DNA of 64,000 bases from Antedon bifida (taxonomy: Eukaryota > Echinodermata > Crinoidea > Comatulida > Antedonidae), in the NCBI GenBank assembly GCA_963402885.1, contig OY727103.1, forward strand, positions 18,130,085 to 18,194,084, given 5' to 3'. The translations under genes and the position numbers were made by a program. Below are positions 7,448 to 45,239 of the stretch, one piece after another (within the stretch, counting starts at the first letter, position 1; each line of letters opens with the position of its first letter). The notes below the pieces were generated by a model, which was not told the DNA's origin, did not search any database, and worked only from the letters and a program-made list of their open reading frames with translations.

Positions 7448-10400
7448 TCAGCTTCGAAGATTGCATTTATTTGTAACCATTCTAAAGTACCCATCTTTAT
7501 TCATCTGTACAAGTTTATTATATTCATCCGGTATATTATGAATTGTTTTAAACCCAAATTTAATTTCCGATGCATAGTGATATGTAAGGTTTCTTCCATC
7601 AGGTGCAGTGCTGAAGGGATAAAATCCATACAGTGATATCATATCGCAATACGGTAAAGCTGCAGTGTACAAAAAAAGTCCAGATGAAGGGCCATTTGTC
7701 AAGTTGAAAAATCTGCAGAAAAATACAATATTACCGTACTTTAAAAATAATGTAGGCCTAAATTTTGAATATTGTAATGAATTACTTATTTGTTACGGGT
7801 GCATCCTGTTTTTAGTAAAATATTTTATTTTTTACTGATTATATTGTTTTCCTTCCTTTCCTCTCTCACTTTTGGAGGCCTTTCTTAAAGTACATTTACT
7901 CCGCATAAAAAGGAAATGCAAACAGAAAAATATCTTACCTTTTTATCGGTTTTGACAGGTATGTGAATGGATAAGCAAGTGATATATTCAGCAAATTGTG
8001 TCTTGCAAAAAAATTTAGCACCTCAAAATGCTCAAAAGGTGTAACGTTACGCACTTTAGAAAACCAAAGTATGACATTTGTTAACTCTTTTAATCTTTGC
8101 AAACCATAAGAAGAATTGCAGACGCCATTATATTTTCTCATGCAGACCCGAAATTGTCTTCTTGCTGCGTTATTTACAGACATTATGTCCGTTTTGTTTC
8201 CAACATCATTTACAAATTCTTTTATAGGAGCCATGTTTGATCTCATCACAAAGTCATGAGCGTCGATTTCAGAGCCACATCCACTGCTTCGAAGAATTCC
8301 GCCACTGCCGACTACTGCGCATGTGCGATGCCGAGAAAGTTTCTCGCCTGCTCTCCTGTCAATATACTTGCCGTAACGTCTAGCCTTTACCATCTGTTTC
8401 AAACTCGTATATTTAACTTGTTGATGAAGAGGTATTAAAATATTTGATGCGAACATGTTTGCTTTGTTCCTATAACAAAAATGATTGAAAAATGATGTTT
8501 GCTATAAACATAAATTATTTATATTCAAATGTTCAAATTGCAATCAATTAATTGTGATTGGACATTACACAATATTTAAAATACAAATGAGTCATTAAAA
8601 AGGTTTAAACAGATAAAAAGTTAAACAAATACAGTTTTTTAAATTAATGTATTGTTGAGTCAATTGGATATAACAATATATAGAATACATCGAAATCAAT
8701 AAAAGGTTGTATATTAGTGTCTACCATTGGTGGAAAACTCCAAGGTTGGTGATGAATTTCCTTGCTTTTTCCGTCTTAAGTCTGGTAAAGCAAAGGCAAT
8801 CATCGTTATCGTCATCATCATCATTGTCGTCATCGTCGTCGTCATTATTATTATTATTATCATTATTATTATGGTCTCTTTTTGCCCTTTTTAGTGACTT
8901 AAATTATTGTTCTTTTATCATTATTTTATTATTGGTCAGAAAATGTGTTCTGTCGTGAAATGTGTTCTTTTTAGAACAAATTGTATAAACATGCATTGTG
9001 CTACATTGTGGTGCAGCCTCATGTTTACAGAATGTAGAATTCTTTTATGAATTTTTAAGAAAATCAATATTATAATGGCCTGATGTGTGTAGACTTAATT
9101 CAAGTGAAAATGTTTTATGCCAACGATTATAGACAACGTCTTATATAAGTCTCCAGGTAAAATGTTATCCTGAGATGAGTAGGCTCGGGCGCCCTAGTAG
9201 TAATTAGTCACTACAGTTTTACATCAATACATCAATCAAATAAGTCAATACATTTATACGTAATTTTACTTTCTGACCAGAGTGATTCCAAAATAAAAGA
9301 TTGAATGAATGAATGACTGAATTATTAATATTACGAAAATAAATGTATCCTTATTGCTTTACTAATTTTAAACTTCTTTATTATTATTGGGTTTTTGTTT
9401 ATTTTCTTGCAATACTTTAGTAACTTTAATAAACAATGTCCTCAGAAAACCTAATATTTGCACACATACACACAAACCCTGTTCACCATGGCTGATATCA
9501 ATCTGTTAAATCCAATTCTCTTTATACTATATAAATTAATTTACAGGATAAGCAATGTGTTTTTAAGTCTATGCATTTTTTCTTTTAATGTACAATGACT
9601 AATGGAGAAGTCTAGAAATAAATGTATGTATTTTGATATATCCAGTATTAAACATAGAAACATTCATTGACTCAAAATTCAAGTTGCGTCATTGAATTCA
9701 AGCAAGGCCTATTTAGATAAACTTACCGTAAGTCGAATACCTTGGCTAAATCAATGGTTTTATTAAATTCAATTTCAAGTAATTCCTTCATGGTTCTCCT
9801 CGGCGGCTCACCAGTTGCAAACGACCTGTGAATAAAATCTTGATAACATAATATTGACTAAAAAAATCTAGTAGGCACGTGTCCAATTAAAGTACAAATG
9901 CATTCGATTATATTATGGTAACTTACTCACTATTAACATTATCTGCACCTGGACCAGTGTAGTAGATATAGGACAATCACTTATAAGGTCCCAACTTAGA
10001 TAAATGAAGTATTGGGAGACTTTATGAAAGCGTGACCAAGCAATGTGTGCGGTATATTTTGGAAAAATTCAATCAAGCATATTATAATTACACAACGATA
10101 CAAACAATGAGTACTGTACATATGCCTCAAGTGTCTCAAGAGTGGAATATGCCTCATTGTGTTGGCGAAGTAGGCGATTATTTTTACCTAATGCAGTGCC
10201 AGGGTTGTATGTCAGTAATAAAGTTTATTTGTATATTATGTGTTCATATATCTAACAGTAGAGCCCACCCACACTCACAGTAATAAAGCTTATTTGTATA
10301 TATTTTTATATTATATATAACAGTACCAACACTCACAGTAAAAAATTTGCGATTCAAATGGCGACCAAAAGTGGTTAATACGTATTTACAGTATTGTCAA

Positions 10401-10852
10401 AGTATTGCAATACTATATCTTAAGGTTTTAAGTTTATTCTCCAAGGGCACATACATTTACCTAATAATTTAGAATGTTACATTCATAGCAAATCAATACA
10501 TTTGTATAAACGTATATTAAATCTATATCAAATTAGTGTTTTTTTTTAAAGAAAATCGACTCTTTCAACTGCATTCCATAAGTTTCAAATGAGACAAGAA
10601 CAATAAAATAAAACAAGTTATCCAGCCATAATCGAGGTAATCGCTGTTGAATGCGTATGAAATAAACAAAATTACAATGAGCTCATAATTAAAAAGATCT
10701 TTATCAATCAGATTTGTTTTTACTAACCTTGAGAAATACGTTCTGTCTATGTATTTACTTTTTTTTGATAAATGTAATAGGGTGATTGTAGTTGCCAATA
10801 TGGAGAAACTTGTTAGAAACGTTAACAAGGTGATCGTCCGTTGTCTAAGCAT
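7448..10852 (-). CDS. gene 1: ST8Sia-like sialyltransferase (GT29), 4 exons, 339 aa
   Basis: Predicted type II Golgi enzyme that would move sialic acid from CMP-sialic acid to a glycan. Exons: 10728-10852, 9727-9825, 7939-8469, 7448-7712; all junctions are GT-AG, phase 2, and join in frame. Exon 1 gives the tail and a membrane anchor (residues about 6-28). Exon 2 gives the stem with an NKT glycosylation site. Exon 3 carries sialylmotif L (about 123-170). Exon 4 carries motif S (about 260-285), motif III (His297) and motif VS (His310, Glu315). Cys125-Cys274 and Cys139-Cys335 match the ST8Sia disulfide pattern. The core usually read as GNGGILLNS is GSGGILRSS here, so the conserved asparagine is serine (residue 130) and activity may be altered or lost. 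The start is the first ATG before the anchor. It is the most diverged of the six copies. ST8Sia-type is firm; acceptor unknown. Confidence 0.85.
8810..8880. repeat. TCA/TCG then TTA microsatellite in gene 1 intron 2
   Basis: Trinucleotide runs (TCA, TCG, then TTA) occupy this stretch. The plus-strand open frame across it is a serine/leucine homopolymer artefact. Confidence 0.8.
9060..9330 (+). mobile_element. possible LINE/SINE 3' end with GAAT-type tail in gene 1 intron 2
   Basis: The segment ends in AAAATAAAAGATTGAATGAATGAATGA, a tetranucleotide tail typical of non-LTR retrotransposon or SINE 3' ends. Nothing upstream is recognisably coding, so this rests on the tail alone. Confidence 0.35.
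10370..10560. repeat. repeat in gene 1 intron 1 shared with 59237-59440
   Basis: This stretch, starting GGTTAATACGTATTTACAGT and ending near AAAGAAAATCG, aligns in the same order with 59237-59440, with small indels. It may be a dispersed repeat or a trace of an older duplication of the locus. No coding exon is preserved next to the second copy. Confidence 0.6.
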
Positions 10853-11970: not shown

Positions 11971-12029
11971 AGCTAAGTAAAGATCGATGCATTTGCACTT
12001 AAATGAGACATTTTTGTAAAATATATAAC

Positions 12030-15494: not shown

Positions 15495-15499
15495 GTTTA

Positions 15500-17110: not shown

Positions 17111-17210
17111 TCTATTTTTCAGTAGGCTAGCTTATTGATACCCTGCTAATGTAGACCTATGCTAATGACGTCATCGTCATCAAAAATGTATATACAGACA
17201 ACGGAACATC

Positions 17211-17410
17211 TTACCTTTGTAGACTATCCGTTAAACGTGTAAACGGATAGTTTTTTTCTGCCAAAATAATAAAGAAGCTCAAAATGGTTAGTAGATTGTG
17301 GTGGTCTAGATTCCTCAGAAAACCACAAAATGACATTTTCAAACTCTCTTTTATCATTCCAAATCAAACCTTGGATCACATAGATTATTCTAATGCATGT
17401 TTGCAGAAAT
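17211..17410 (-). pseudogene. decayed copy of sialyltransferase exon 3 (3' half)
   Basis: On the minus strand this aligns with the last part of gene 2 exon 3 (about 18546-18750): the GATCCAAGGTTTGATTTGG, GAGTTTGAAAATGTCATTTT and GTTTTCTGAGGAATCTAGAC segments, the CCGTTTACACGTTTA segment and the same CTACAAAG/GTAAGA donor are all present. About 25 bases are deleted near the 3' end and there are further small frame-changing indels. Sialylmotif L is missing. Intron-side similarity continues to about 17110. It lies just downstream of gene 2 and is best read as the remnant of a seventh copy or a partial duplication of gene 2. Confidence 0.85.
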
Positions 17411-17793
17411 ATTATTATTATTTATTTGTATTTCCAATTTAGTTAGCCAAAACCCTGTAGAAAAAAAGACATCCTGTTTTATCAATTTTCAATTGATGAA
17501 TATTGAATTCAATAGATAGATTCAAATTGAGACCTAAAAACCTACTTTTTAAAATCTATTTTTGTTATAGTTTTAAATCAAATTCTTAACCGCTAAAACG
17601 TATCTTGGATTTAGATGCTCGTAAACTGATTATTGAAACGACCTAAATTACCCTAGCAAGCTTCGCCACCCTACCCTGAACTCTACTGGAGCCCTCGGCG
17701 GACCGCAACCTTGGTTCTTGCTTCGCTTGCAAGGCCCCTCAAAATCTTTATAGATCCGCCCCTGTAGGCCTATTCAATCTATTCGGTTAGGCG

Positions 17794-20700
17794 TTAAAAT
17801 ATTATGCCATTTTGGTTAAATAATTGTCGTTGAAGGACGCATTTATTCGTAACCATTCTTAAATATTTTCCTTCCTTCATCTCGATAAGTTTCTTATATT
17901 CATTTGGCATTTTATGAGAGTTGTTAAATGAAAATCTGGATTTCCCATCATAGTGAACTTTAATTTTTCTTCCATCAGGTGCAATGCCAAAAGGATAAAA
18001 TCCATACAGTGATATGATATCGCAAAACTGCACGGCTGCAGTGTACAGATACAGGCCGGATGAAATTTTATCTTTCATGTTCCAGAATCTGAAAAAAAAT
18101 TGAGAACTACTGTACTTGATATACTTTTTCATAATTCTCTAGGCCATGTCAATCGCAATTTTGAGTGGCGCAAGTTTTCTTAAGGAGACCGAAGAAAGCC
18201 TTAATTTTTTAAGCATACAGGCAAGCTCTCAAATACTACCAACTTAAGAAGGTCTAGGCCTACTAGACCTTCGCTTAATGAAATAAAACACATGCATTTG
18301 TTTTTCAGCTCAACTTGTCAGTCCTATCCTTTCAAATCACTATAATGCATTGCATTTAGACATAGTTTTCCGCAGTGCGTACAAATGGGCACCCATCCTT
18401 TTAATGTAATCATAAGTAAGAGAAAAAATAGGCCTAACTCTGTCAGTAGGCTAGCCTTATCAGTAAACTACTACCCTGCTAATGTCTGTGCATCATCGTC
18501 AGACATTTACCCACACACCAATATACAGACAACGTAATATCTTACCTTTGTAGATTATCCGCTAAACGTGTAAACGGATAGGCAATTGCAACATTCAAGT
18601 TTGCTGTGTCAAAATAATGAATAAGCTCAAAATGTTTAGTAGTTTGTGGTCTAGATTCCTTAGAAAACCACAAAATAACATTTTCAAACTCTCTTAATCT
18701 TTCCAAATTAAACCTTGGATCACAGATACTATTATTTGTAATGCATCTTTGCAAAAATGCCATTGACTCCTGATTGGCAGACATTATGTTCGTTTTGTTT
18801 CCAACATCATTTACAAATTCTTTTATAGGAGCCATGTTTGATCTCATCACAAAGTCATGAGCGTCGATTTCAGAGCCACATCCACTGTTCAGAAGAATTC
18901 CACCATTGCCGACTACTGCGCATGTGCGATGCCGAGAAATTGTCTTTCCTTTTTTTTGTAGGTATTTATAAAAATGAGTACCCTTTCTGAATTGTTTCAA
19001 ATTCGAATACTTGCCACGTTGAATAAAAGGTATTAACACACTTGAATTGAATTCCTTCGTTTTATGCCTATGAGTAAAATAGAAATATATTATCATCAGT
19101 GCATTTTTGCCATGTTGATGACAATGTTGTAATAATATTTGTCTAGGCCTATTCTTTATATATTTTCATAACGTAAAACAAATTTTTTTTTTACATTTGA
19201 TTTTTTTATTATTTATTCTTTCTTTCAAACAAACAATGCTAAGCGGCAATTGCAGGCTGACTATAAAATTTACAATTAAAATACAATAAAGATAAAATAT
19301 AAATAATGATTACATTCAAAACAATAAATTGAGAATGACTAGTTATCAATATCCAAGGAATTGCTTGATAAAAGACAGAAATTGTAAAACGACGACGAAA
19401 GTAAATAGAAAACAAAGTTTTTTTCAAACCTTAATACGACGACAAAATTATTATTATTATTATTTATTCAGGCAAAAGATACATTTAACAAAATATATTA
19501 CAAATCAACAAAATAAAATTAAACGACGCAAGAAGAAAAAAACAATTTTTAACACGAAAAAGATGTTTAGGCCTACAACCAAGATTATGAAGAGGCAAAT
19601 TAAAGTAAAATTACGAAGAGATCACATTGAAAAACACATTTATAGGACTTCTTCTTGAAATTCGGAGAAATCTACAAGAGCTTCTTAGGGAATAAAGGCT
19701 TATTATTAAAATACTTTGGAAAGAGAGAGAGTGATTTGGCCTATTGTGTAGAAATCAAGGAAAGTTAGATTGGATGAAGTTAGAAGGGCACTGCACGTTT
19801 GGTGTGCGAGGAAAGCTGTTTGCAATCCGTACGCCACAACAAACACAGCATTTAATAGTGTCTTGTATGTAAAACTTGGTTGTCATTCGGACATAACGCA
19901 GGGACGTAGACGCAACGCAAGCGGTAAAGTAGTTCGTGTAATCCATCGCTTTTGATTGATCACTATGTTTGGTTCCCACTAGAAACGCAACACAACGACG
20001 TAACGCAACGTACGGGATTTGACCAATCACAAGCGATGGATTATTCTAACTGCCGCTTGTCATTGGTTAACACGCTTGCGTTGCGTTTACGTCCTTGCGT
20101 TGCGTTCTAGTGAGAACCAAGCTTAAAGACGCAACACAACGACGTAACTCAACGTACGGGATTTGACCAATCACAAGCGATGGATTATTCGAACTGTCGC
20201 TTGTCATTGGTCAACTCGCTTGTGTTGCGTCTACATCCTTACGTTGCGTAGGAAACAAGCTTCACTGGTGTTGCGCTTGCGTCGTTGCGTTGCGTCCTAG
20301 ATGGGAAGCAAGCATCGTGGGTAACATTATTTTCTTTATAAAACTAACAAACAGAACTTTGCATTTCTCAGACATCAGGGACACTTTCAGAGACCCAACC
20401 ATCGAATCAATCCAGATCCTTCCGAAAGGCAATGCAATCCTCGATGGTAATAAGTTAATTTTTATTTTGAACAACAAACAGTATATTATATTGGTATATT
20501 TTGATATATCCGATCCCATATGTAATAATGATAAACAAATGTTGGCAGGACCAACCTGGTAAATCAATATCATTGAAGTCAATTGGTTACAAATGGACAA
20601 ACTTACCTTAAGTTGAATACTTTGGTTAAATCAATGGTTTTACTAAATTCAGTATCAAGTAATTCCTTCAGCGGCTCCTCAACAGTTGAGAACAATCTGT

Positions 20701-20907
20701 GAATCAAAAATACCATTGTATTTCTTAACAAGCAGTATGAAACATATAACTCGGGTACTAAAAATAATATGTTTTTACTAACCTTGGACAATACAGTATG
20801 TTTGTGTCTTTACTGCGTGTTGATAAAGATAGTAGAGAAAATGAAGTAACCAATATAGATAAGGTTGTTATAAACATGAACAAGATAAGCCTTTGACGTC
20901 TATGCAT
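17794..20907 (-). CDS. gene 2: ST8Sia-like sialyltransferase (GT29), 4 exons, 343 aa
   Basis: Predicted Golgi sialyltransferase. Exons: 20783-20907, 20607-20696, 18546-19067, 17794-18088; all junctions are GT-AG, phase 2. Exon 1 starts [12 protein letters not shown], a basic tail followed by a membrane anchor (residues about 6-28). The stem exon is the shortest of the six (29 full codons) and reads FSKTIDL, so the glycosylation site seen in the other copies is lost. Motif L has the regular TCAVVGNGG and SGCGSEID core. Motif S ([20 protein letters not shown]) and the HKMPNE motif VS are intact, as are all four disulfide cysteines. The C-terminus continues about 12 residues beyond NKC...L ([12 protein letters not shown]), unlike the other copies. 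A second glycosylation site (NVS in genes 3-6) is NVA here. Probably active; acceptor unknown. Confidence 0.85.
19865..20310. repeat. cluster of three palindromic GCAACGCAAGGACG repeats
   Basis: Three consecutive related units (about 19865-19965, 19966-20122, 20123-20262) contain CGCAACGCAAGGACGTA-type arms facing inverted arms around a TTGACCAATCACAAGCGAT core, bounded by CTTGGTTC(T/C)CACTAG / CTAGTGAGAACCAAG. This looks like a MITE family. Related copies lie at about 47255-47395 and in intron 3 of genes 3 and 5. The cluster is inside gene 2 intron 2. Open frames here are artefacts. Confidence 0.7.
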
Positions 20908-28010: not shown

Positions 28011-28046
<36 letters not shown>

Positions 28047-28238
28047 AATCATAATCATCATTATTTATAGTATTTAGTAATTACAACATGTTTGAGTTTC
28101 TTTAGATGTTCGAGGGGAGGGGGGGGGGGGGGGGGAGGGGGGCTGCCTAAATGTAAGTCTACTGGAAAAGCCCATAGGATTACACTCGTGAGATACACGT
28201 GAACATCCTGCTTCTCAATTTTGTTTAAATGATTTACG
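26063..28238. other. intergenic stretch between genes 3 and 4
   Basis: No gene is seen. About 26970-27505 matches 12661-13307, including 130 bases of piggyBac remnant (27376-27505). About 27155-27345 and 27508-27690 are direct repeats of each other. Block B lacks the stretch 27066-27505. An ATC microsatellite (about 28011-28060) and a poly-G run (about 28118-28139) precede the gene 4 3' end. The empty site for the block-B Harbinger-like element is TAA at 26347-26349. Confidence 0.6.
28011..28060. repeat. ATC trinucleotide microsatellite
   Basis: An uninterrupted run of CAT/ATC triplets continues as CATAATCATAATCATC. The block-B counterpart (near 40100) is much shorter. Confidence 0.9.
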
Positions 28239-31200
28239 TTAAAGCACGCACTTATTCGTAACCATTCTAAGGTATCCTTCGTCGTTCATCTTTACAAGTT
28301 TCTTATATTCACTCGGCATATCATGGGAATTGTTAAATTCAGTTTTCGTTATTCCTTCATAGTGATATGTAAGGTTTCTTCCATCAGGTGCAATGCTGAA
28401 AGGATAAAATCCATACAGTGATATCATATCGCAAAACTGCACAGCTGCGGTGTACAAAAACAGGCCGGATGAAGGGCGCTTTTTCATGTTCCAGAATCTG
28501 ATAAAAAGAAAGAAAAAAAGATTTATATCGTACATTAGGTAAGGTTTTCATACCTTGACTAATGCGCATGCGTATTAATTTCCAACTACTATTTGTGACG
28601 CAAGCAATGTGCAAGTAATGAGAACGTATGAATGTTCAATACGCACAACTCCATTTCTGCACGGCGAGCTAAAAACACTTTTCAGTGAAAAAGACGTATT
28701 GTGCAGTTGAAAATAAGGGTTTTTATGAAAATCTACCATGCTAGCAAAATCAATCAAATCAATTTCAAAATTACAATGCAAAAGGTGGGTTATAGGTTCA
28801 GCACTTGTTAACATTTTTAAGTCCTGTCGCCCCACTCCCCCCCTTTTTTTTTCCGAAACGTAGGATCCACCACCGGCCTATATGTTCATGAAATGGAAGT
28901 ATACCTGCATTTGTTTTTAAGCACTTTTGAGTCACATAAACAAGTCAGAAATGGAAAAATTATCTACAGGTAAAAGCATTGCATTTTTTATTCCGTGGTG
29001 GGTCCCTATATGTATATTGATGTCCTATAAAGGCACCACCCTACTGATGGTATGGCACTATGCAAACCCCATCATCAATGTTCTAAAGAAAACAGCACAT
29101 CTTACATTTTTAAAGTGTTCGCCAACTTTGTAAACGGATAAGCGATTGAAACATTCACGTTTTTGCGAAAAAATTGAAGAAGCTTAAAATGTGTATCAGT
29201 CTGTGGGCTATCTCTCTTAGCAAACCAAAGAATAACATTTTTAAAATCTCGTAATCTGTTCAAATGATATTTTGGATAACAGCGATCATCCTCTTTCCTA
29301 ATGCATTGTAGTAAAAGTCCACTGGATTCCATATTCACAGACATTATATTCGTTTTGTTTCCAACATCATTTACAAATTCTTTTATAGGAGCCATGTTTG
29401 ATCTCATCACAAAGTCATGAGCGTCAATTTCAGATCCACATCCACTGTTCAGAAGAATTCCGCCATTACCGACCACTGCGCATGTGCGATGCCGAGAAAT
29501 TTTCCTTCCTGTTCTTCGAACGTACTTGCCAAAATGAGTAGCTTTCCTAAATTGCGCCAGGCTCGTAAAATTGGTGTGCTGATGAAAAGGTATTAACACA
29601 CTCGACTTGAATTCTTTTGCTTTATTCCTGTGAATGAAATGAATAGGATTCAGTGTATGGAACGCCTCCTCTGCCTTCAGTTCACAAAGGTCATGCAGTA
29701 CACACCAATCGTCATGCAGTACACACCAATGGTCATGCAGTACACACCAATGGTGATGCAGTACACACCAATGGTCATGCAGTACACACCAATCGTCGTT
29801 CACATTTATCATGCAGTACACACCAATCGTCATGCAGTACACACCAATGGTCATGCAGTACACACCAATGGTCATGCAGTACACACCAATCGTCATGCAG
29901 TACACACCAATCGTCATGCAGTACACACCAAACATCATGCAGTACACACCAATCGTCATGCAGTACACACCAAACATCATGCAGTACACAGCAATGGTCA
30001 TGCAGTACACACCAATCGTCATGCAGTGAAATATTGCGTAATTTATACCGCCACCTATCGACAAAATCGAATATCACGTGACGTTTATTAGACGGCTGTA
30101 AAACTAGGCCATCGATTTCTTTTGTTTGACATACTGTACTTATTTTAACCGCTACACATCTCTGTGAATGCTCTGTTTTTTTATATATACAATAATTTAT
30201 TATGCGAGACACAGGCGTGGCTAGGAGGCCATTGCAATTATTAAATTCCATAAAAGAAGTTTAAATAGTCTTAGTTTTACAGCCGTCTAATAAACCTCAC
30301 GTGATATTCGATGTTGTCGATAGGTGGCGGTATAAATTACGCAATATTTGACTGCATGACGATTGGTGTGTACTGCATGACAATTGATGTGTACTGCATG
30401 ATGTTTGGTGTGTACTGCATGACGATTGGTGTGTACTGCATGACGATTGGTGTGTACTGCATGATAAATGTGAACGACGATTGGTGTGTACTGCATGACA
30501 ATTGGTGTGTACTGCATGACCATTGGTGTGTACTGCATGACGATTGGTGTGTACTGCATGACGATTGGTGTGTACTGCATGACGATTGGTGTGTACTGCA
30601 TGATGTTTGGTGTGTACTGCATGACGATTGGTGTGTACTGCATGACGATTGGTGTGTACTGCATGACCATTGGTGTGTACTGCATGACGATTGGTGTGTA
30701 CTGCATGATAAATGTGAACTGAAGGCAGAGGAGGCGTTCCATATCAGTGATGTTATTTTGTTATCTAATCGTTACAATTTACTTTCAGCTAAATAAATTA
30801 CATCAACAATTTTATTCTAGTATCACTATTGTATTTACTATCCAGGAATACACAACTAACTCGCATGAAAGAAATTGTTTGGATATACTGTAAACACGTT
30901 TTCATCTGGTTTCGATTTAGTAATTAGTTGGTGCATATTTACGAACCTCTGGTCTTCTAGACTATACATCAAAACCATCCAGTGGCTGGAAAAGAGCTGA
31001 CAAAGTCTAGATGACAGCTTGACGAAACTGTCTTGACACGAAAGTTATTTTACTGGTTTACAATACATGAACTCTATCTCATTGGATATACTTACAACAC
31101 GGCAATTCTGGAGCACCAAACAGTTTAAATTTCAATATTTCAGTATTAATTACAAGATCTGTTGCTCAAATTTCAGCACGCGACTGCAGCCATGTATATG

Positions 31201-32334
31201 GCTTTTTTTTTCGCTTTACGGAACGGAAGACGATACCTTGTCGTTTAATATCAGAACGGCATCGTCTTCCGTTCCGTCAAACGGACCAAGTGTGATGTTA
31301 GCGTTATGGATGCGATACATTAAAAACACTTTGCTACATAATTAATAATTATCAAAAGCAATAACCTGGTTTTTAACACAGTATCAGACCCGCTTTGCTA
31401 AATAGGTCTGGTGGTACTGTACACGGTATGCATAGTAAATACCATCCTAAATGTTATACTTTTGGATGATCAATTTTGCGGCCGACGATGATTCACAATT
31501 AAGACGATGAAAGGCACTTCTAGTATATCCTTTCCTATTAGGAACTATTGGTCAGTTCAGTATTTTATTGGCATTCATTTTAGAAACAGTGGCATAAACC
31601 TTTTGATGAGGCGTCCATAGTTCCGTAGAAGGAAAATTGAAAAATAACTGGTATAGAGAATGTCTTCTACTTTTATGCGCATGCGTATTTCCACATATTT
31701 TCTTGAAGGGCAAATCAATCAGAACTCACCAGCGAATAGAAATTGCTCAGACAAGTGGTAAACGTGGTTGTTCACTCTCTCCAGGTTTGTTTGAATTTAT
31801 CTCTACCTTTCATCTTTACCAATAAATTACAGCTTACCTTAAGTCAAATACCTTGACTAAGTCAATGGTTTTATTAAGTTCAGTTTCAACTAATTCCTTC
31901 ATGGTTTTATGCGGCTCAACGGTTGTAGACAATTGTTGATCCAAATCTTGATTGTATTCCCTATTAATAATCAAAAAGAAAATGTAGTGACGGCGATATA
32001 CAGACCAAAGCAATCTAACAACATGACACTAAGCTTATTCCTATTAAAAGGGGACATCTCTATAATAAAGGGGCTCTCCTCAATATAAGACACTAACCAA
32101 CTCCTATTCAGGAGATACACTTATCGAGGGGACCTTGTTGGATCCGAAGGTGTCCCCTTAATAGGTTCACTGTAGAAAAAGAGAAGAATCTACTAACCTT
32201 GCAACAGCGAACCTTGGGTAATGCTGTTTGCGTAATGTGTCTTTAAAAATGTATTCTGGCGAATACAATAAGGTAATGACTGTTAAAAGTACGAAGAAGA
32301 ATAGAAGAAATCTAACTGCAAGTTGTCTAAACAT
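28239..32334 (-). CDS. gene 4: ST8Sia-like sialyltransferase (GT29), 4 exons, 346 aa
   Basis: Predicted Golgi sialyltransferase, second gene of block A. Exons: 32198-32334, 31838-31960, 29106-29627, 28239-28497; all junctions are GT-AG, phase 2. Exon 1 starts MFRQLAVRFLLFFFVLL, with the anchor at about residues 5-24. The stem exon is longer than in genes 1-3 and 5 (40 full codons) and keeps the NKT site. Motif L has [17 protein letters not shown]. Motif S ([19 protein letters not shown]), motif III (YHYEG), motif VS (HDMPSE) and the terminal NKC are intact, with all four disulfide cysteines. Intron 2 carries a 1,088-bp fold-back element (29656-30743) that begins only 28 bases upstream of exon 3's acceptor. 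An open frame extends exon 3 into that element, but the acceptor CACAG at 29628 marks the true edge, as in the other five genes. Confidence 0.87.
29656..30743. mobile_element. 1,088-bp fold-back element with 21-bp repeat arms
   Basis: It starts TATGGAACGCCTCCTCTGCC and ends with the exact complement. It is flanked by the direct repeat TCAGTG at 29650-29655 and 30744-30749. Block B has the uninterrupted site, one TCAGTG, near 41709-41714. Each arm consists of about 15-16 tandem 21-bp units (core CATGCAGTACACACCAAT), with a TTCACATTTAT interruption. Internal to the units, both arms share further complementary sequence (CCGCCACCTATCGACA, CGGCTGTAAAACTA), leaving a central unique part of about 170 bases. 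No transposase is present. Long open frames of seven-residue repeats on both strands are artefacts of the 21-bp unit. Confidence 0.92.
31218..31277. repeat. hairpin repeat in gene 4 intron 2
   Basis: Seventeen-base arms ACGGAACGGAAGACGAT (31218-31234) and their exact complement (31261-31277) flank a 26-base loop. The same hairpin is at 42184-42243 in gene 6, and a related sequence lies near 17050. It is probably a palindromic MITE remnant. Confidence 0.75.
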
Positions 32335-34891
32335 AATTAATTATTTCAGGAAAACTCATGTAGTTTTAAACAGGCACAGCCTTAACTTAAATCAACCGTT
32401 CTCAAAGTGGTTGAACTTGTTTTTGACAACAATCTTAAGTGATCTAGGTGATTGGCTCATCACAACAATAGATTGGAAAGGCGATGTGAAAGCTATAGGA
32501 AATGTGTTCACAATAATTAGGCAAAGTTTGGACAAACAATGGATTACCATTGTTATATGTCAATGTTGGTGTGGGTAGAGGGGTGTGTGAATTACTAAAC
32601 AAAGGCAGTACAGTATTATATTGATCTTTATTTAGCCAGTCCAAGATCTATACAATTAACCTGAGTGTTTTTTTTATAACGAGGCAAAGAGTAAATTACT
32701 CGGTTATTGCCTCTCTTTTCTTTATTTCTATGTTGAGTCGATCATAATTACGTTCGTAAAAATGTGGTAAAGCAATTGATATGAATATAGAAATATTACT
32801 TTAATTGAAAATATGTCAAATTTACTTTTTTGTGCATTAAAAAAGCAACAATTCATTTTTCATATAATTTTTGTATTTAATATGTACTTCAGGCCGCTTC
32901 TATGTATTACATAACATTGTAAATAAAGGCCCTAGGTATAAAGCGAATCTTCCAGAGTGTGTTTTTACAAGTAAGACGTCATGAGCTCACGCATGCATCA
33001 TGAATATTCATGATATATGCACGCCCTCTATAGTTTCTGCCTTAACCTAATAGGGAAAAAGAATGCTAGCGGGACGATTCAACCAGGAACAACTCGCCCC
33101 ATGGACGACTCCGCTCAGAATATGTCAAACAATTAATCAATACAAAAGGTAGCCAAGATATAGTCGACTTTGCAATTGAAATACATATTATAACAAGGCC
33201 ATATACATGCCTGAAGTCGCATGCTCAAGTTAGTGTTTACCGACCAACCGACCGACATAGTGAGCTGTAGTTGCACGCGACTAAAAATAAATAGGCCTCA
33301 TAAATACTTTGATTTTCTTTCTTTTGCAGAAAAATGAGCAGAATTTTCTCCAACTGGTCTTGGATTCTCCACAAATATGACCTCGTGCCTGACCGGAAGA
33401 ATTTAAACAATTTTTTTAAAAACGATGGATAATCTTTTATGTTAGATCATTTTACCATGGACCTAATTTATAGGTCCACGATTTCACCTCTAGTGCATCT
33501 ATCAAAATACAATGGCTCTTAAAAGCAATTGTTCGAAGAATAAGGCCATACTTATTGAGTTACTGTTTACCAACCGACCGACATAGTGAGCTGTAGAGTT
33601 CCCTTTCCACTAAAATAAAATAAAACAAGAGCGAATAGCTGCGATTTTCATGTTCATCGCGTGTCTGCTGATCTGTTCGATTCGGATGAGTGTTCATGAA
33701 CGCGTCATAGCTCATTTCATGAGCCTTGATTGGTTGTACAAGTTTTTTCTTCGCAAAAAGTAGAAACAATTCGAACTACTAATTTCGCTCAAGCGAAAAC
33801 TCAAGAAACTAGAATTCCTCGCAGAGAGGGACTTAGATGGAAACATTAATACGCATGCGTATAAGCTGACGCTTTTCGTTCGCGCCTACAAATTAGCCTA
33901 GTTTAAAATAGACTGAATGAATGTTAACAGTAAATGGCAACATTGTTATAAATGTAAACGCTTGTCTGTCTTATATCACCCAACTTGTTCCTCAATATGT
34001 TCCATCTCGTCACCTTCGCTTCTTTGACAAAAAATGTTATGTTATAATTTCCGTACTAAGATTACGGTTGACACACGCTTTCCTTGGTTATATAACAAAC
34101 TGACACGCCCGTACAAACATTCACCCAATTGATTCATTTCAAATTAATTAAAAAACTCCTTCATTTAGAAGATTTTAGGATACAATACATCTGATCATTT
34201 TTGGCGCAATATAAGTAAATAAATGTTATATTCGTACAATAAAAACGGTACTTGTTTTATGAACTAACACAGAAGAGCATTATGCAACATTCCGACGACC
34301 ACTTTTTAAAAAGAGGGTTTATTTTACAACCCTCGATATGCTTTACTAGTCCAACAAATATGATTGGTTGTTATCAATGTTGTTGCAAAGGGTTGTATTT
34401 TACAACAGTAGAAACGTAAAGCCCGGAGCAACAATAAAAAAAGTAATAGTAAGTGACAAAAAATAAAAATTTACGACATGATATGTTAAAGACACTTTCC
34501 CTACGGTTTTTTTCCCGATATAATTTAAGGTCACAAAATACTGGGCCTATTGCGATAATATGTTTCGTCTTAAAACGGTTTAAAAACACTGACAAAAAAA
34601 GTCGATTCTAATACTAAGCGGATATTTTCCCCAAAACAAAGAGGAGAGGAAATTAAACAGAGTAACTTAGGACTAGGGTTCTATAGCAACATTAAGTTTG
34701 GAAATGTATGTGAGAAATGTTTAAATAATTTGCATTTAAAATTAAGAACATTAGTTGTTTTAAGTTATGAAAGCATAACATATTAATTGAAAAGGGACGC
34801 CATTTGAAAATTCCAAGAGAACGTGCAATCAAGACAGCCGAAAGGAGAAAAGTAATGTACAGTTTTTTTAAACTAACAAGTGCTGGATAAT
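32335..34891. other. intergenic stretch between genes 4 and 5
   Basis: I see no gene. It contains a half-copy of the inverted-repeat element of 3368-3683 (about 32990-33062) and two copies of the ACCGACCGACATAGTGAGC repeat (about 33197-33275, 33545-33600). It matches block B up to about 33490/44430. Similarity resumes at about 34060/46060 and ends at about 34620/46330. The bases at 34820-34891 match the 3' flank of gene 1. Confidence 0.6.
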
Positions 34892-37800
34892 TCAGCTTCG
34901 AAGATTGCATTTATTTGTAACCATTCTAAAGTACCCATCTTCATTCATCTTTATAAGTTTCTTATATTCATCCGGTATATTATGTGAGTTATTAAACGAA
35001 AATCTGGTATTCCCATCATAGTGAAATGTAATGTTTCTTCCATCAGGTGCAATGCCAAAAGGATAAAATCCATACAGTGATATCATATCACAAAAAGGCA
35101 CGGCTGCAGTGTACAAATACAGGCCGGATGAAGGGACTGTCGTGTTCCAGAATCTGAAACAAATATAAGAAAGATTTTTAGTAATTAGGTTTTAGTTTAT
35201 GGCAGATTAGTTTCCACGGGAACCAATGCAAGGGTGACGTGTAAACGCAACTTTTCGACTTAAAATGTCGTAAAATAATAACATTGGATGTCTTAAAACT
35301 TGGTTCATACTCTAGGACGCATTGCAAGGACGTAAACGCAAGGGTTGGAGAAAAATTTTGTAAGAAAATAATCCTGCGTGTCTTAAAGCTTGGTTCACAA
35401 TCAAAATGTCGCTCAGCTTGTGTGAAGCTTGGTTCGCACGAGGACACAATAAGGACGTAGAAAACGGGCTTTGCGGCGCCTTCTTTTTTATAGAATTTCT
35501 GCAAGTTAAAGAGCGTTGAATATAAGTTTTACCTTGGCAACGCTACAAGAACAATATTAGGCCTAACTTTATTGATTGCTCACCGGTTTATCAATAATTA
35601 AGACTACCCTACTACTGGTTGATCCTAACACCAATATACTATACAATAGTGATAACCATCTTACATCTTTAAATGTTGAAAAAACTGCTTATGCGGATAA
35701 GCAATTGAAACATTCAAGTTGTTTCTGCTAAAAAATTGAAGAAACTCAAAGTAGCTTTCAGTTCGTGGAGTAAAATCTTTAGAAAACCAAAGAACAGCAC
35801 CTTTGAACTCTCTTAATCTTTCTAAACCAAACTTTGACTTCCATAGCTCATAATGTTCGTGTTTTTTCCCCTGGATATACGAATGTAGAAATCTTGTGGA
35901 TTCACCATTTACAGACATTATGTTCGTTTTGTTTCCAACATCATTTACAAATTCTTTTATAGGAGCCATGTTTGATCTCATCACAAAGTCATGAGCGTCA
36001 ATTTCAGAGCCACATCCACTGTTCAGAAGAATTCCACCATTGCCGACTACTGCGCATGTGCGATGGCGAGTAACAATTTGTTTTGTTTTTCCAACATACT
36101 TGCCATAATGAGTAACTTTTCTGAATTCTCTCAGATTCTTAAATTTACCATGTTTATGAAAAGGTGTTAACAAACTTAACTTGAGATTATTCGCTTCCGC
36201 TCTGTGAATGAAATAAAAATAACACAAATAACACACTTATTGCATTGGCAAATTGATTGGTTAATTACGTATCACGTGTCATATGACTGCTCTATTTTCA
36301 ACTCGGCCTTGTCTCGTTAAACACAGAGAAGTCACTTGTTTTTCAACTCATGAAATATTCTCACCATCCAACTCTTATAAACATTTATAATATTATACTA
36401 TCGAAAAGCGACAGCTTATACACATGCGTAGGGAGTGACTTGGAATATGGAAAAATGAATACGATTCGATCTTTGTCTCTTAAACCGTTGCAAATAAAAT
36501 AAAAAATGATTTTATTTATTGTATACAATATATCCATATTTGTGTGTTTCGATTATACTAGAAAGGTAGGCCAATTTAGATATTTTCTTTTATTTTATGT
36601 CTTTATTAGGCAATGTTGCCAAGGATTACCAATACTAGTAAATTAATCACTGTCATATCAGTGTTTAGGATGTAAATTTTACCGCACTATTGTATACCTA
36701 TTAGCTATTAGATCGACACTTCAATCATGTGATATTTAACCATTATTCACATGTCTTGGTACGTACAGTAGGTTACTAAAAATGACAACCATTGCACTGC
36801 GATGATAAATCGAATGACATAATATGATCGAAAATTTCTTTTAAAAAAGTAAATATTTAAAAAAGCAATGGGGCTCAAACTTACCGTAAGTTGAATATCT
36901 TAACTAAATCAATGGTTTTATTAAGTTCATTTTCAACTAATTCCTTCGTGGATCTCCTCGGTGTTTCAGCAGTTTGCGGAAATCTGTGAATAACATGAAT
37001 TAGCGGTATTAAATAGAGACAGTCTAATAGGCCACGATGTCCAAAAGCAGTAAAAATTATCTCTGGTCAAAAACTAAATAAAAACAGTACGATTAAATAT
37101 CGACGGCAATTAATCTTGTGTACAATTAACAATAGGGACCATCTCTACTGCAAATAAGTACACAATTAACACTAGGGACCATCTCTACCGCAACTATTAT
37201 TCATAATTAACAATAGGGACCATCTCTACCGCCACTATTGTTCATAATTAACAATAGGGACCATCTCTACCGCAACTATTGTTCATAATTAACAATAGGG
37301 ACCATCTCTATTGCAACTAAGTTCACAAAAATCAACACTAGGGACCATCTATACCGCAACTATTGTTCATAATTAACAATAGGGACCATCTCTACCGCAA
37401 CTAAGTTCATAATTAACAATAGGGACCATCTCTACTGCAAATAAGTTCACAGTTAACACTAGGGGCCATCTCTACTGCAACTAAATACACAATTAACAAT
37501 AGGGACCATCTCTACAGCAACTACGTGCACGGTTAACATTAGGAACCATCTCTATTGCAACTAAGTGCAAATTAGCACTAGGGACAATATCTACTGCAAG
37601 TTCTATTGTAATTAAGTTGTTCCAAACCAATGGTGCTTCAGGAAATCCTTTTAAACCCAGATTTAAGGCGTATATTTTCGGAATGAATAAGATAAGAGCA
37701 CATAATGTATAGCAAAGACCTGTTGGGACATGGAATATGTGATTAAATCATAAAATTAACCATAAAAAATCATATATTTGGAATAATCAGATTGGTAAAG

Positions 37801-38004
37801 TAGAGTTTATAATATTTAGGTACAGATACGTTGTTCAATTTTAAGCCAGTGACTAACATATGTTTCTACTAACCTTTGATTATACTGTCTGCTTATGTAT
37901 ATGTTGCCATTGTATTTTGACGACCATAATAGAGCGAATGCAGTTACCAGTACAGAGAAGCTTATTAGAAACGTAAACAGGGTAATCGTCTTTTGTGTAA
38001 CCAT
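34892..38004 (-). CDS. gene 5: ST8Sia-like sialyltransferase (GT29), 4 exons, 342 aa, mosaic 3' end
   Basis: Predicted Golgi sialyltransferase, first gene of block B. Exons: 37874-38004, 36885-36983, 35665-36201, 34892-35153; all junctions are GT-AG, phase 2. Exons 1-3 are almost identical to gene 3 (one residue changed in exon 1; eight extra residues, HYELWKSK, in exon 3, an in-frame 24-base difference). All sialylmotifs and the four cysteines are intact. The first two-thirds of exon 4 is gene-3-like, apart from a short difference (TTVP versus MTDKI). From about 35010 downwards it switches: the end reads HNIPDEYKKLIK and NKCNLRS like gene 1 (NKCNLRS), where genes 3, 4 and 6 end NKCVL. The 3' flank is also gene-1-like. 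This indicates recombination or conversion between paralogues. Confidence 0.87.
35178..35504. repeat. CGTAAACGCAAGG repeat in intron 3 of gene 5
   Basis: Block-B counterpart of 23161-23480, with scattered substitutions. Confidence 0.6.
37115..37605. repeat. 41-bp minisatellite, about 12 units, gene 5 intron 1
   Basis: Same unit as the array at 25058-25672 (core AACAATAGGGACCATCTCTA), but with about four fewer units. The first and last units match between the arrays. The gain or loss is in the middle. Confidence 0.9.
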
Positions 38005-40301
38005 TATCAATGGTTTTCAAATTCCAATACAGGCCTAAATAATAAAATCATGAAAGCTTTTATAGAACAATATATTATAGTAAAGTATATAATATAAATA
38101 TTAAAGTAAATACTGAATAGCTAATAACAGTTTATCAATATACAAGACATATTTCTCGACAGCGATTGCCATAGGAGAGAAAGACTATAGGCCTAAGCCT
38201 GTATAATTTTAACAATATTAATTTCAATTTGTATCGCCATTTCACGACACTGTGGATATTTGATCCTTTCAACTACATGCCGTTTCACTAAAGCCCCTTT
38301 CTCACAGATGTGCCTGCAATATACCGGTACAGTGCTGGCGTCGTGCCGGTATCGTTACCGGCATATACCCATTCTCATCGGACTATCGTGCCGGAAATAT
38401 AACCGGTATATAACGTCTTTCTGTGAGAAAGGAGTCGGGCATATACGGCCAATAAAAAGTCTCTGACAAAATAATTATTGAGGGCGTCCTTTATTGTTAT
38501 TATTTTTGTCTAGCGATATATGGCGGCGAATGTTAAGTTACAGATTATTATCTTCCTTTATAGCATATTTATGCAATACATGCTATGTACAGTATATTGT
38601 GCATATATTATACAGGTACAGCAATAAATTAGCCGTCATCGGCAATCTGTAAAACACCTTAGAAGGCTGTACAATTTACAAGGCGACGAAGGGTCAGGCA
38701 CCAACAAAGAGCTATGGCCTATAGATTATGCTACAAATTTCTTCTTGTCCCCTTATTTTAAGCAGCTCTCTTATCTCATTATCCCTCCAGTTCGACATTA
38801 TTATTGTTAATTGAATTGATACACTTGACCGCGCAAGGTGTCAAAGCCTCGACGGGGAACCCCGGAATATAACGGCGTTACGTTCTCACAGAATGCCCGT
38901 CTGGCATTGCGGGGAATATCCCTAGAATACTAGGTCTAAAGCAGGTCATGTCGATGCCGGCATGATGCCAAGACGACCCGTTCTCACAGAAAACCATACC
39001 GGCATGGTAATATTCCCGCAATATTCCTGACACACAGCTCTTTGAGAAAGGGGCTTAAGGGCCACGTCCTGTACGTGCTGCCAATTCTACATTCGACAGA
39101 GATTTAATGTGAATTAGTAGGTCTACACCGGAGTAACCTACTACCCTATCGGTACTCGTCTCGAAAGATAATGTACTAGGTTCATTGAAGTTCACACGAG
39201 CATCCTGGACCTTCCAGGTTAATAGTCTTTATCCAAGAAGACTCGTTCGCCAGCCAACCTAAAAAAACCATGGAAGACCTCAAGTTCTCGGCCATTCAAA
39301 TAGAACAAAAATGTCCTTTAGATAGTAAGTATTTTATATTATAACCAATTATTCTTTGAACAACATCTATATTTGCCAAAAATGTAACTATATGAATGAT
39401 TTTTTGGAGAGCCCATTACAAAGTGATTTTACCTAATACCGGTACCTCTGTTTAAGAAAGCACAGTGTGCAGCCGATATAGGATAACTTCTAACATGACC
39501 GTTCATTATTCAACAATTTTGAATAATTCAGCCATGGCGTAGGCCTACCACGATCATCACCAACCAAAATGACACGACTGCCTATTAATACAGTAATCTG
39601 TCTACTACTGCTCACCCCACTCACTATCTAGTTCCGTTAAACTGGATATTTACAGAATAATAAAATAATGTTTACAGAAAAGAGAACAACGTATCAACAT
39701 CCTAAAGCTGCATTCACACTAGTCCAATCGTGTATATTACTCCGTTTCGTGAAGTGTAACTGTAACTTTATAAAAAACTTGACTTACCGGTGGTATGGTA
39801 ATTATTGCGTTTTACAATACACTACAACAACTCAAATAAGAAAATCAGTTGAAGCATTTACTAGTCTTGCATGATGCATATACGGTACAGTACACAGACA
39901 TAAAAAAAGAGCGTATTATTCATCGCAGCATTGTTGGTCTTTGTATTCTTCAGCCATTAATACAATAGAAAATTGCTAGAGGCAGTAAGTAAACAATGGT
40001 TCTGTATAGTAATTGTTTTCATATTGAATGAGTACGTTGTGTTTCTCAAACAAATAATAAACGCCACTCGAAGAAACACCTCCCTCGAGTAAAAAGCCCA
40101 TCATCTTCATCATAATCATAATCATCATTATTTATAGTATTTAGTAATTACAACATGTTTGAGTTTCTTTAGATGTTCGAGGGGAGGGGGGGGGGGGGAG
40201 GGGGGCTGCCTAAATGTAAGTCTACTGGAAAAGCCCATAGGATTACACTCGTGAGATACACGTGAACATCCTGCTTCTCAATTTTGTTTAAATGATTTAC
40301 G
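38005..40301. other. intergenic stretch between genes 5 and 6
   Basis: No gene is seen. It is the block-B counterpart of 26063-28238. It carries the inserted element at 38292-39055 and lacks the 440 bases corresponding to 27066-27505. It has a shorter ATC run and a poly-G run near 40187-40198. Confidence 0.6.
38292..39055. mobile_element. 764-bp PIF/Harbinger-like MITE with empty site in block A
   Basis: The ends are AGCCCCTTTCTCACAGA and the complement TTTGAGAAAGGGGCT. Both sides are flanked by TAA (38289-38291, 39056-39058). Block A has a single uninterrupted TAA at 26347-26349 (CACTAAGGGCC). A three-base TAA/TTA duplication is characteristic of PIF/Harbinger elements. The interior is rich in ACCGGTA/TGCCGG motifs and holds no transposase. 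An open frame at 38260-38466 straddles the left junction and is not a gene. Confidence 0.85.
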
Positions 40302-43300
40302 TTAAAGCACGCACTTATTCGTAACCATTCTAAGGTATCCTTCGTCGTTCATCTTTACAAGTTTCTTATATTCACTCGGCATATCATGGGAATTCTTAAA
40401 TTCAGTTTTCGTTATTCCTTCATAGTGATATGTAAGGTTTCTTCCATCAGGTGCAATGCTGAAAGGATAAAATCCATACAGTGATATCATATCGCAAAAC
40501 TGCACAGCTGCGGTGTACAAAAACAGGCCGGATGAAGGGCGCTTTTTCATGTTCCAGAATCTGATAAAAAGAAAGAAAAAAAGATTTATATCGTACATTA
40601 GGTAAGGTTTTTATACCTTGACTAATGCGCATGCGTATTAATTTCCAACTACTGTGACGCAAGCAATGTGCAAGTAATGAGAACGTATGAATCTTCAATA
40701 CGCACAACTCCATTTCTGCACGGCGAGCTAAAAACACTTTTCAGTGAAAAAGACGTATTGTGCAGTTGGAAATGAGGGTTTTTATGAAAATCTACCATGC
40801 TAGCAAAATCAATCAAATCAATTTCAAAATTACAATGCAAAAGGTGGGTTATAGGTTCAGCACTTGTTAACATTTTTAAGTCCTGTCGCCCCACTCTCCC
40901 CTCTTTTTTTTCCGAAACGTAGGATCCATCACCGGCCTATATGTTCATGAAATGGAAATATACCTGTATTTGTTTTTAAGCACTTTTGAGTCACATAAAC
41001 AAGTCAGAAATGGAAAAATTATCTACAGGTAAAAGCATTGCATTTTTTATTCCGTGGTGGGTCCCTATATGTATATTGATGTCCTATAAAGGCACCACCC
41101 TACTGATGGTATGGCACTATGCAAACCCCATCATCAATGTTCTAAAGAAAACAGCACATCTTACATTTTTAAAGTGTTCGCCAACTTTGTAAACGGATAA
41201 GCGATTGAAACATTCACGTTTTTGCGAAAAAATTGAAGAAGCTTAAAATGTGTATCAGTCTGTGGGCTATCTCTCTTAGCAAACCAAAGAATAACATTTT
41301 TAAAATCTCGTAATCTGTTCAAATGATATTTTGGATAACAGCGATCATCCTCTTTCCTAATGCATTGTAGTAAAAGTCTACTGGATTCCATATTCACAGA
41401 CATTATATTCGTTTTGTTTCCAACATCATTTACAAATTCTTTTATAGGAGCCATGTTTGATCTCATCACAAAGTCATGAGCGTCAATTTCAGATCCACAT
41501 CCACTGTTCAGAAGAATTCCGCCATTACCGACCACTGCGCATGTGCGATGCCGAGAAATTTTCCTTCCTGTTCTTTGAACGTACTTGCCAAAATGAGTAG
41601 CTTTCCTAAATTGCGCCAGGCTCGTAAAATTGGTGTGCTGATGAAAAGGTATTAACACACTCGACTTGAATTCTTTTGCTTTATTCCTGTGAATGAAATG
41701 AATAGGATTCAGTGATGTTATTTTGTTATCTAATCGTTACAATTTACTTTCAGCTAAATAAATTACATCAACAATTTTATTCTAGTATCACTATTGTATT
41801 TACTATCCAGGAATACACAACTAACTCGCATGAAAGAAATTGTTTGGATATACTGTAAACACGTTTTCATCTGGTTTCGATTTTTTAGTAATTAGTTGGT
41901 GCATATTTACGAACCTCTGATCTTCTAGACTATACATCAAAACCATCCAGTGGCTGGAAAAGAGCTGACAAAGTCTAGATGACAGCTTGACGAAACTGTC
42001 TTGACACGAAAGTTATTTTACTGGTTTACAATACATGAACTCTATCTCATTGGATATACTTACAACACGGCAATTCTGGAGCACCAAACAGTTTAAATTT
42101 CAATATTTCAGTATTAATTACAAGATCTGTTGCTCAAATTTCAGCACGCGACTGCAGCCATGTATATGGCTTTTTTTCGCTTTACGGAACGGAAGACGAT
42201 ACCTTGTCGTTTAATATCAGAACGGCATCGTCTTCCGTTCCGTCAAACGGACCAAGTGTGATGTTAGCGTTATGGATGCGATACATTAAAAACACTTTGC
42301 TACATAATTAATAATTATCAAAAGCAATAACCTGGTGTTTAGGCTAAAAATAGTACCGGACCCGCTTTGCTAAATAGTTTTGATAGTACTGTACACGGTA
42401 TGTATAGTAAATACCATCCTAAATGTTATACTTTTGGATGATCAATTTTGCCGCCGATGATGATTCACAATTAAGACGATGAAAGGCACTTCTAGTATAT
42501 TCTTTCCTATTAGGAACTATTGTTCAGTTCAGTATTTTATTGGCATTCATTTTAGAAACAGTGGCATAAACCTTTTGATGAGGCGTCCATAGTTCCGTAG
42601 AAGGAAAATTGAAAAATAACTGGTATAGAGAATGTCTTCTACTTTTATGCGCATGCGTATTTCCACATACTTTCTTGAAGGGCAAATCAATCAGAACTCA
42701 CCAGCGAATAGAAATTGCTCAGACAAGTGGTCAACATGGTTGTTCACTCTCTCTTTAGGTTTGTTTGAATTTATCTCTACCTTTCATCTTTACCAATAAA
42801 TTACAGCTTACCTTAAGTCAAATACCTTGACTAAGTCAATGGTTTTATTAAGTTCAGTTTCAACTAATTCCTTCATGGTTTTATGCGGCTCAACGGTTGT
42901 AGACAATTGTTGATTCAAATCTTGATTGTATTCCCTATTAATAATCAAAAAGAAAATGTAGTGACGGCGATATACAGACCAAAGCAATCTAACAACATGA
43001 CACTAAACTTATTCCTATTAAAAGGGGACATCTCTATAATAAAGGGGCTCTCCTCAATATAAGACACTGACCAACCCCTATTCAGGAGATACACTTATCG
43101 AGGGGACCTTGTTGGATCCGAAGGTGTCCCCTTAATAGGTTCACTGTAGAAAAAGAGAAGAATCTACTAACCTTGCAACAGCGAACCTTGGGTAATGCTG
43201 TTTGCGTAATGTGTCTTCAAAAATGTATTCTGGCGAATACAATAAGGTAATGACTGTTGAAAGTACGAAGAAGAATAGAAGAAATCTAACTGCAAGTTGT

Positions 43301-43308
43301 CTAAACAT
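40302..43308 (-). CDS. gene 6: ST8Sia-like sialyltransferase (GT29), 4 exons, 346 aa
   Basis: Predicted Golgi sialyltransferase, second gene of block B and near-twin of gene 4. Exons: 43172-43308, 42812-42934, 41165-41686, 40302-40560; all junctions are GT-AG, phase 2, with exon lengths identical to gene 4 (137, 123, 522, 259). Replacements against gene 4 include K to E and L to S in exon 1, D to N in the stem, R to Q and G to R in exon 3, and N to K in exon 4. The last one removes an N-glycosylation site (NNSH to KNSH). All sialylmotifs and the four disulfide cysteines are kept. Intron 2 lacks the fold-back element found in gene 4. It is the most upstream gene of the array in this window. 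Confidence 0.87.
42184..42243. repeat. hairpin repeat in gene 6 intron 2
   Basis: Same 17-base arms as 31218-31277. It is the block-B copy. Confidence 0.75.
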
Positions 43309-45235: not shown

Positions 45236-45239
45236 ATTG

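Follow-up and report, generated by a model that had tools for sequence, protein, structure and literature searches.

A tandem cluster of divergent ST8Sia-like sialyltransferase genes with a near-identical motif L in the crinoid Antedon bifida

How do neighbouring genes come to share one motif letter for letter when the proteins that they encode have drifted far apart elsewhere? This question is raised by a stretch of 64 kb in the genome of the crinoid Antedon bifida (the whole stretch is called the window below), which lies at C16:18130085-18194084 of a 315.6-Mb assembly and holds six ST8Sia-like sialyltransferase genes of family GT29, here named A to F. The parts of these genes outside motif L diverge fast, and motif L itself is nearly invariant. 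We conclude that the window probably carries a tandem cluster of a divergent ST8Sia-like GT29 subfamily, in which motif L is homogenised by gene conversion and the acceptor-side parts of the proteins diverge.

Gene structures, motifs and cysteines

Rebuilding from the sequence gave six four-exon GT29 genes, arranged head-to-tail on the minus strand from position 7448, the stop of gene A, to 43308, the ATG of gene F. Each of the 18 introns has GT-AG ends and phase 2, none of the six frames contains an internal stop, and the lengths of exons 2 and 3 are divisible by three in every gene. Exon 1 encodes the N-terminal hydrophobic stretch found in all six, exon 2 the stem, exon 3 motif L and exon 4 motifs S, III and VS. 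The predicted exon chains are 10728-10852, 9727-9825, 7939-8469 and 7448-7712 for gene A (7448-10852; 339 aa); 20783-20907, 20607-20696, 18546-19067 and 17794-18088 for gene B (17794-20907; 343 aa); 25932-26062, 24819-24917, 23648-24160 and 22878-23136 for gene C (22878-26062; 333 aa); 32198-32334, 31838-31960, 29106-29627 and 28239-28497 for gene D (28239-32334; 346 aa); 37874-38004, 36885-36983, 35665-36201 and 34892-35153 for gene E (34892-38004; 342 aa); and 43172-43308, 42812-42934, 41165-41686 and 40302-40560 for gene F (40302-43308; 346 aa). A preliminary description of the locus had reported six intact four-exon genes on one strand with GT-AG introns and open frames, and the rebuilt models bear this out with exactly the same span.

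The GT29 profile PF00777 scored above its cut-off in eight of the ten open reading frames (ORFs) scanned, including the motif-L exon ORFs of all six genes. Spliced F found its best solved relative in human ST8SIA3 (residues 76-344, E 1.6e-32), with ST6GALNAC2 second at E 1.2e-12 and ST3GAL1 and ST6GAL1 following. Given these E-values and the six repeats of one gene structure, a chance resemblance to GT29 is excluded. Sialylmotifs L, S and VS (H-x4-E) are present in all six genes, as are the ST8Sia cysteines: two in motif L, 14 apart, one in motif S and a C-terminal one 61 further on, compared with a spacing of 66 in ST8SIA3. For gene D, the cysteines and the stretch before motif S were taken from its gene model, which is identical to F at these places. 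The second motif-L cysteine and the C-terminal cysteine are marks of the ST8Sia family (PMC2564942, PMC12682141). Extra cysteines 3' of motif L are present in A, B, D and F and absent from C and E.

Motif III departs from this pattern. The human consensus is (H/y)-Y-(Y/W/F/h)-(D/E/q/g) (PMC8433944), and the window genes read HYAS (A), HYDG (B, C and E) and HYEG (D and F), keeping H-Y but carrying A, D or E as the third residue in all six. The earlier statement that every gene has motifs L, S, III and VS with four conserved cysteines is thus correct for L, S, VS and the cysteines and only partly so for motif III. Since the consensus describes human enzymes, the change is a deviation inside GT29 and not an exclusion from it. 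HYDG also occurs in two relatives from the same clade (see below), L016 on C8 and L077 at C16:12.57 Mb, the latter being the one gene read from a trio. Altogether the third residue is non-aromatic in eight of eight clade members read and is Y or F in 27 of 27 other readable rows (26 loci), a count that leaves out the duplicate loci L001, L008, L028 and L029, hits weaker than 1e-6 and seven rows without a readable motif III. Loss of the aromatic third residue seems to mark the window clade.

The stretch before motif S was compared with the PSTD of polysialyltransferases, which is polybasic, spans 32 residues and has an isoelectric point (pI) of about 12 (PMC12682141). In the window genes, the net charge of these 32 residues runs from +1 (B) and +2 (C) up to +7 (F), and the pI is 8.4 in B, 9.5 in C, 10.3 in E, 10.4 in A and 11.3 in F, whose letters D shares here. 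Charge at this place does not identify a polysialyltransferase, because ST8SIA3, which is not one, also has +7 and a pI of 11.8.

Silent-site divergence in motif L

A run of 75 nt within motif L is identical in all six genes, at 8190-8264 in A, 18791-18865 in B, 23884-23958 in C, 29351-29425 in D, 35925-35999 in E and 41410-41484 in F, all on the minus strand. In 2000 shuffles of the codon columns, the longest invariant run was at most 31 nt. The catalytic core had been described as unvarying, which is true of motif L but not of the whole proteins: protein identity between lineages is 54-63% (for 12 of the 13 such pairs, E-F not being included).

To separate protein constraint from copying, we counted silent differences at codons that specify the same amino acid in both genes, comparing the motif L core with the rest of exon 3 and leaving out E and F, which duplicate C and D, the short L055, L005 and L076. 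Among window genes A-D, silent differences numbered 21/276 in the core and 99/313 in the rest. The core was likewise lower in the tandem clusters at C16:12.57 Mb (24/129 against 40/105), C10:0.39 Mb (6/146 against 26/152), C12:2.8 Mb (7/263 against 45/309), C15:12.5 Mb (10/486 against 100/576) and C10:10.7 Mb (29/468 against 120/497), making six of nine clusters. Two control comparisons gave equal values. A set with a single gene per cluster, drawn from eight ST8Sia-type clusters, yielded 449/842 in the core and 213/394 in the rest (0.53 v 0.54), and eleven ST6GalNAc-like genes yielded 1037/1706 and 637/1026 (0.61 v 0.62); the latter were termed dispersed, and on C11 some of them are less than 50 kb from another. 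When all codons were counted, the ratio of core to rest was 0.24 among A-D and 0.94-1.08 between window genes and those at C10:0.39 Mb, C12 and C9. As judged from these sequences, local gene conversion of the donor-binding motif L between neighbours fits the pattern best. With silent divergence of the core lowered inside six of the nine clusters but matching that of the rest in comparisons across clusters, the family lends itself to a clean test of how conversion can keep one motif alike while the remainder of a tandem family diverges.

Duplication, exchange and decay of copies

The history of the cluster can be read in part from its repeats. Genes C and D lie in a block (22887-33492) that aligns with the block of E and F (34907-44428) in segments of 91-99% identity, the two being copies of one tandem duplication. 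C/E and D/F are therefore recent copies of one block of roughly 12 kb, leaving four old lineages: A, B, C/E and D/F. Between D and F there are 6 replacement changes and no silent one, the synonymous divergence (dS) between C and E is 0.055, and introns align within both pairs, with best pieces at 95-99% (97-99% in D/F); between the four lineages, alignment of the introns gave no match. Across lineages, the ratio of replacement to silent divergence (dN/dS) of whole genes is 0.42-0.68, indicating that the older copies were kept under constraint.

Exchange and loss have left traces as well. Exon 4 of E is C-like to its middle and then A-like, including nearly 20 nt past the stop (maximum chi-square p 2e-4, 131 informative sites), and no similarity was found between the downstream flanks of C and E. 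Gene B has CAA in place of the stop TAA of C, D and F and reads 12 codons further. Part of the C-terminal variation thus has simple causes, namely the lost stop of B and the A-like last half of E exon 4. At 17214-17415 on the minus strand lies a decayed fragment, the 3' half of a B-like exon 3, which tblastn recovered as pieces in more than one frame and which is supported by a DNA match of 17190-17410 to 18521-18758. In this cluster, copies have arisen, exchanged sequence and been lost. Together with the clade described below, the block duplication and the decayed further copy support the local ST8Sia-like expansion that had been proposed.

Several repeats lie within and beside the genes. Intron 2 of D holds an insert of ~1.1 kb (29656-30743), ~28 nt before exon 3, with an inverted repeat 84% alike, 21-nt tandem units, inverted ends that match exactly and a target duplication of 6 bp (TCAGTG); the empty site is present in F. 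The insert looks like a non-autonomous fold-back transposon and could disturb the splicing of D. Arrays of ~40-nt units occupy intron 1 of C (25056-25657, 14.8 copies) and of E (37122-37599, 11.8 copies). ORFs at 44567-45512 resemble by eye the end of a LINE-type element, without a Pfam match, and part of this region recurs at 5117-5880. Apart from the decayed fragment, no seventh full gene was found in the 64-kb window; ten further ORFs had no Pfam match over the cut-off, smaller ORFs not having been scanned, and no tRNA was found in the window, whose GC content is 33.7%. Published values are 33.22% for a feather star genome and 33.71% for a green sea urchin (PMC7351957). Elsewhere in the assembly, a COX1 match on contig C27 runs through six TGA codons, as happens in many animals.

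The cluster is one part of a large repertoire. In the assembly, 11 sequences of which carry 314.7 of the 315.6 Mb, a PF00777 search returned at least 149 matches, divided by profile position into 90 motif-L exons, 57 S-part exons and 2 in between. Of the motif-L exons, 78 were read (72 of 84 outside the window and the six inside), 56 with and 22 without the second motif-L cysteine that marks ST8Sia. A search with exon 4 of F gave 80 places, 79 of them free of internal stops. Humans have six ST8SIA genes (PMC6712005), and a 2008 survey found 27 new ST8Sia sequences in sea urchin and amphioxus together (PMC2564942). The local expansion was thus framed too narrowly, the window being one cluster of a genome-wide repertoire, and tandem expansion of this kind was published in that 2008 survey.

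A tree was built from 123 columns and 66 rows, leaving out 13 rows shorter than 100 aa, the four duplicate loci named above and a weak second hit in L020. It splits the ST8Sia-type rows at 100/100 from a 16-row group that, from its motif CVIRMN, we take to be ST6GalNAc-like. The window genes form one clade with L016 (98/92) and then with the three genes at C16:12.57 Mb (94/92). A gene at C1:11.15 Mb (L009) groups with human ST8SIA3 (100/99) and the window genes do not, so an ST8SIA3-like gene exists apart from the window clade. The deeper forks are unsure, with few columns and several long branches. L016 (C8:10456612-10456890) is a solitary member of the window subfamily that lies on a different chromosome and is nearest to B (97/95); with one TGA inside the family match it is probably broken, and its exon 4 is open.

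Other GT29 loci show further arrangements. About 59 kb past the window end, a second cluster (C16:18253021-18307485) has eight matches in which S-part and motif-L exons alternate, and at least two of its motif-L matches end at profile position 84, as if an intron split motif L. Motif L and the S part apparently share one open frame (346-433 aa) at C16:12567508-12568365, C15:12.48-12.52 Mb, C15:20.23 Mb and C9:30.54 Mb; intron loss or retrocopying is a possible origin of these copies. At C9:21870839-22612749, the CMP-sialic acid synthetase profile PF02348 has four partial matches, which suggest that the sugar donor is made and that the synthetase gene may have been multiplied too.

Weighing the explanations against known systems

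Genes A to F would encode type II membrane enzymes, probably located in the Golgi, which move sialic acid from CMP-sialic acid to an acceptor that is most likely already sialylated, with the VS histidine as the putative base. In GT29 enzymes, motif L serves mainly in donor binding, binding of the acceptor or of both substrates falls to motifs S, III and VS, and the histidine acts as the base (PMC8433944). The cluster would have grown by block duplication and unequal exchange, with copies lost by decay. Purifying selection on motif L for donor binding may keep neighbours similar enough to permit conversion between them, which would lead to near identity even at silent sites, and the stem, the segment from L to S and the C-terminal part would drift apart, probably altering acceptor preference. 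A diversified acceptor or chain-length specificity, as previously proposed, is plausible.

Several observations weigh against this reading. The effect is lacking or hardly there in three of the nine clusters, C9:14.8 Mb (110/192 in the core against 97/178 in the rest), C7:2.7 Mb (6/150 against 7/121) and C10:24.6 Mb (4/484 against 10/657), of which the last two are young and have few changes anywhere. A run test applied pair by pair, in which pairs inside one cluster are not independent, reached p < 0.01 in just 3/6 window pairs, 3/10 at C15, 4/10 at C10:10.7 Mb, 1/3 at C16:12.57 Mb, 1/3 at C10:0.39 Mb and 0/6 at C12; in the two controls it did so in 0/28 and 0/55. The ratio of core to rest is lowered not only within the window but also between the window genes and their nearest kin, at C16:12.57 Mb (0.59) and L016 (0.72). 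The youngest pairs, C-E and D-F, have 35 replacements among 46 changes (p 0.58 against neutrality) and give no sign of constraint; for these copies an open frame is therefore weak evidence of function, and it is stronger evidence for the older lineages. The loss of the aromatic third residue of motif III argues against assuming conventional alpha-2,8 activity.

Could motif L simply be constrained at silent sites, through splicing signals, codon choice or RNA structure, in an ordinary old tandem expansion without conversion? The core does encode a strongly conserved motif inside a long exon, and motif S in exon 4 also has less silent divergence in the window (proportion of silent differences about 0.15, codon columns 291-320). 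However, a general constraint of this kind would show in both control comparisons, where core and rest are equally divergent, and the chimeric exon 4 of E demonstrates that exchange between copies does happen; we consider constraint without conversion quite improbable. Still harder to accept is an assembly artefact in which two haplotypes were placed end to end, so that the E-F block would be no true duplication. High heterozygosity is common in marine invertebrates, and the absence of silent differences between D and F, together with their closely similar introns, would agree with such an error. A plain haplotype copy would not, however, leave C for an A-like sequence inside exon 4, as E does, or lack similarity to C in the downstream flank.

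Two further alternatives accept the cluster as real and differ over its products. If dosage or redundancy were the point, the copies would yield the same product and homogenisation would just keep them alike, as the 6 residues that separate D from F and the many copies of one enzyme type might suggest; but the four lineages have diverged over their whole proteins, with variation in the stem, the extra cysteines and the charge ahead of motif S, and we regard this explanation as unlikely. The subfamily with the changed motif III might instead make another linkage, such as alpha-2,9 or alpha-2,11, or use another acceptor. The division of motif III, HY[ADE][SG] in the clade members read against an aromatic third residue in the other readable rows, is consistent with this, as are reports that echinoderm gangliosides contain internal sialic acid and alpha-2,11 links (PMC4393008) and the suggestion of alpha-2,9 activity for ST8Sia EX (PMC2564942). 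However, H-Y of motif III, both VS residues (histidine and glutamate) and the four cysteines are all kept, and we give a changed linkage only a small chance. Homogenisation of motif L by conversion within a diverging tandem subfamily thus remains the explanation that we favour.

A bolder extension can be imagined. Since all introns are in phase 2 and exons 2 and 3 are multiples of three, the reading frame would survive crossovers in introns as well as splicing from one gene to its neighbour. The clusters might then act as generators of diversity, in which conversion keeps the donor-binding cassette working, the acceptor-side segments diverge and are reshuffled in frame, and enzymes with the altered motif III make the unusual alpha-2,11 or alpha-2,9 links; we hold this to be a long shot. 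To our knowledge, no enzyme has been identified or tested for the alpha-2,11 or alpha-2,9 links of echinoderm glycans. The mapped clusters, with at least 56 ST8Sia-type motif-L exons, provide a bounded list of candidates for these unusual links, ten of which fall in the one clade with the changed motif III (8/8 read). From echinoderms, inositolphosphoceramide cores have been reported along with internal sialic acid and alpha-2,11 links (PMC4393008), and sea urchins have alpha-2,9 and glycolyl-linked sialic acid chains (PMC2564942). The 2008 survey described the ST8Sia EX group and tandem ST8Sia duplicates in invertebrate deuterostomes, raised EX genes as candidates for unusual sialic acid links and suggested alpha-2,9 or other such links (PMC2564942).

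Among known systems, human ST8SIA3 (PDB 5bo6), an oligo-alpha-2,8-sialyltransferase, shares the catalytic domain, cysteine pattern and H-x4-E of the window genes; it differs from them in its motif III, HYYD, and in grouping with L009. The polysialyltransferases ST8Sia II and IV belong to the same family and have the same disulphide pattern (PMC12682141); the basic stretch before motif S is present in F, weak in B and C, and equally present in ST8SIA3. ST8Sia EX of sea urchin and amphioxus, compared here by its description (PMC2564942), is alike in its ST8Sia motifs, its C-terminal cysteine, its invertebrate deuterostome setting, its multiple tandem duplicates and its position outside the vertebrate subfamilies. 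A 2023 review gives EX genes as absent from vertebrates (PMC10225777), and the authors of the 2008 paper found no motif that distinguishes EX (PMC2564942); membership would be marked by a basal place within ST8Sia in a tree. In our tree, which includes no EX sequence, the window clade is separate from ST8SIA3, a position that fits EX and does not show EX membership. Among the open-licence matches listed in a literature search, no title dealt with gene conversion in sialyltransferases or with an expansion of this size. The changed motif III, conversion that appears limited to motif L and a repertoire of 56 or more ST8Sia-type exons within one genome are not among the features that we find described for EX. 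Collectively, the tandem expansion of ST8Sia genes was already published, and what looks new in A. bifida is the scale of the repertoire, the change in motif III and a homogenisation limited to motif L.

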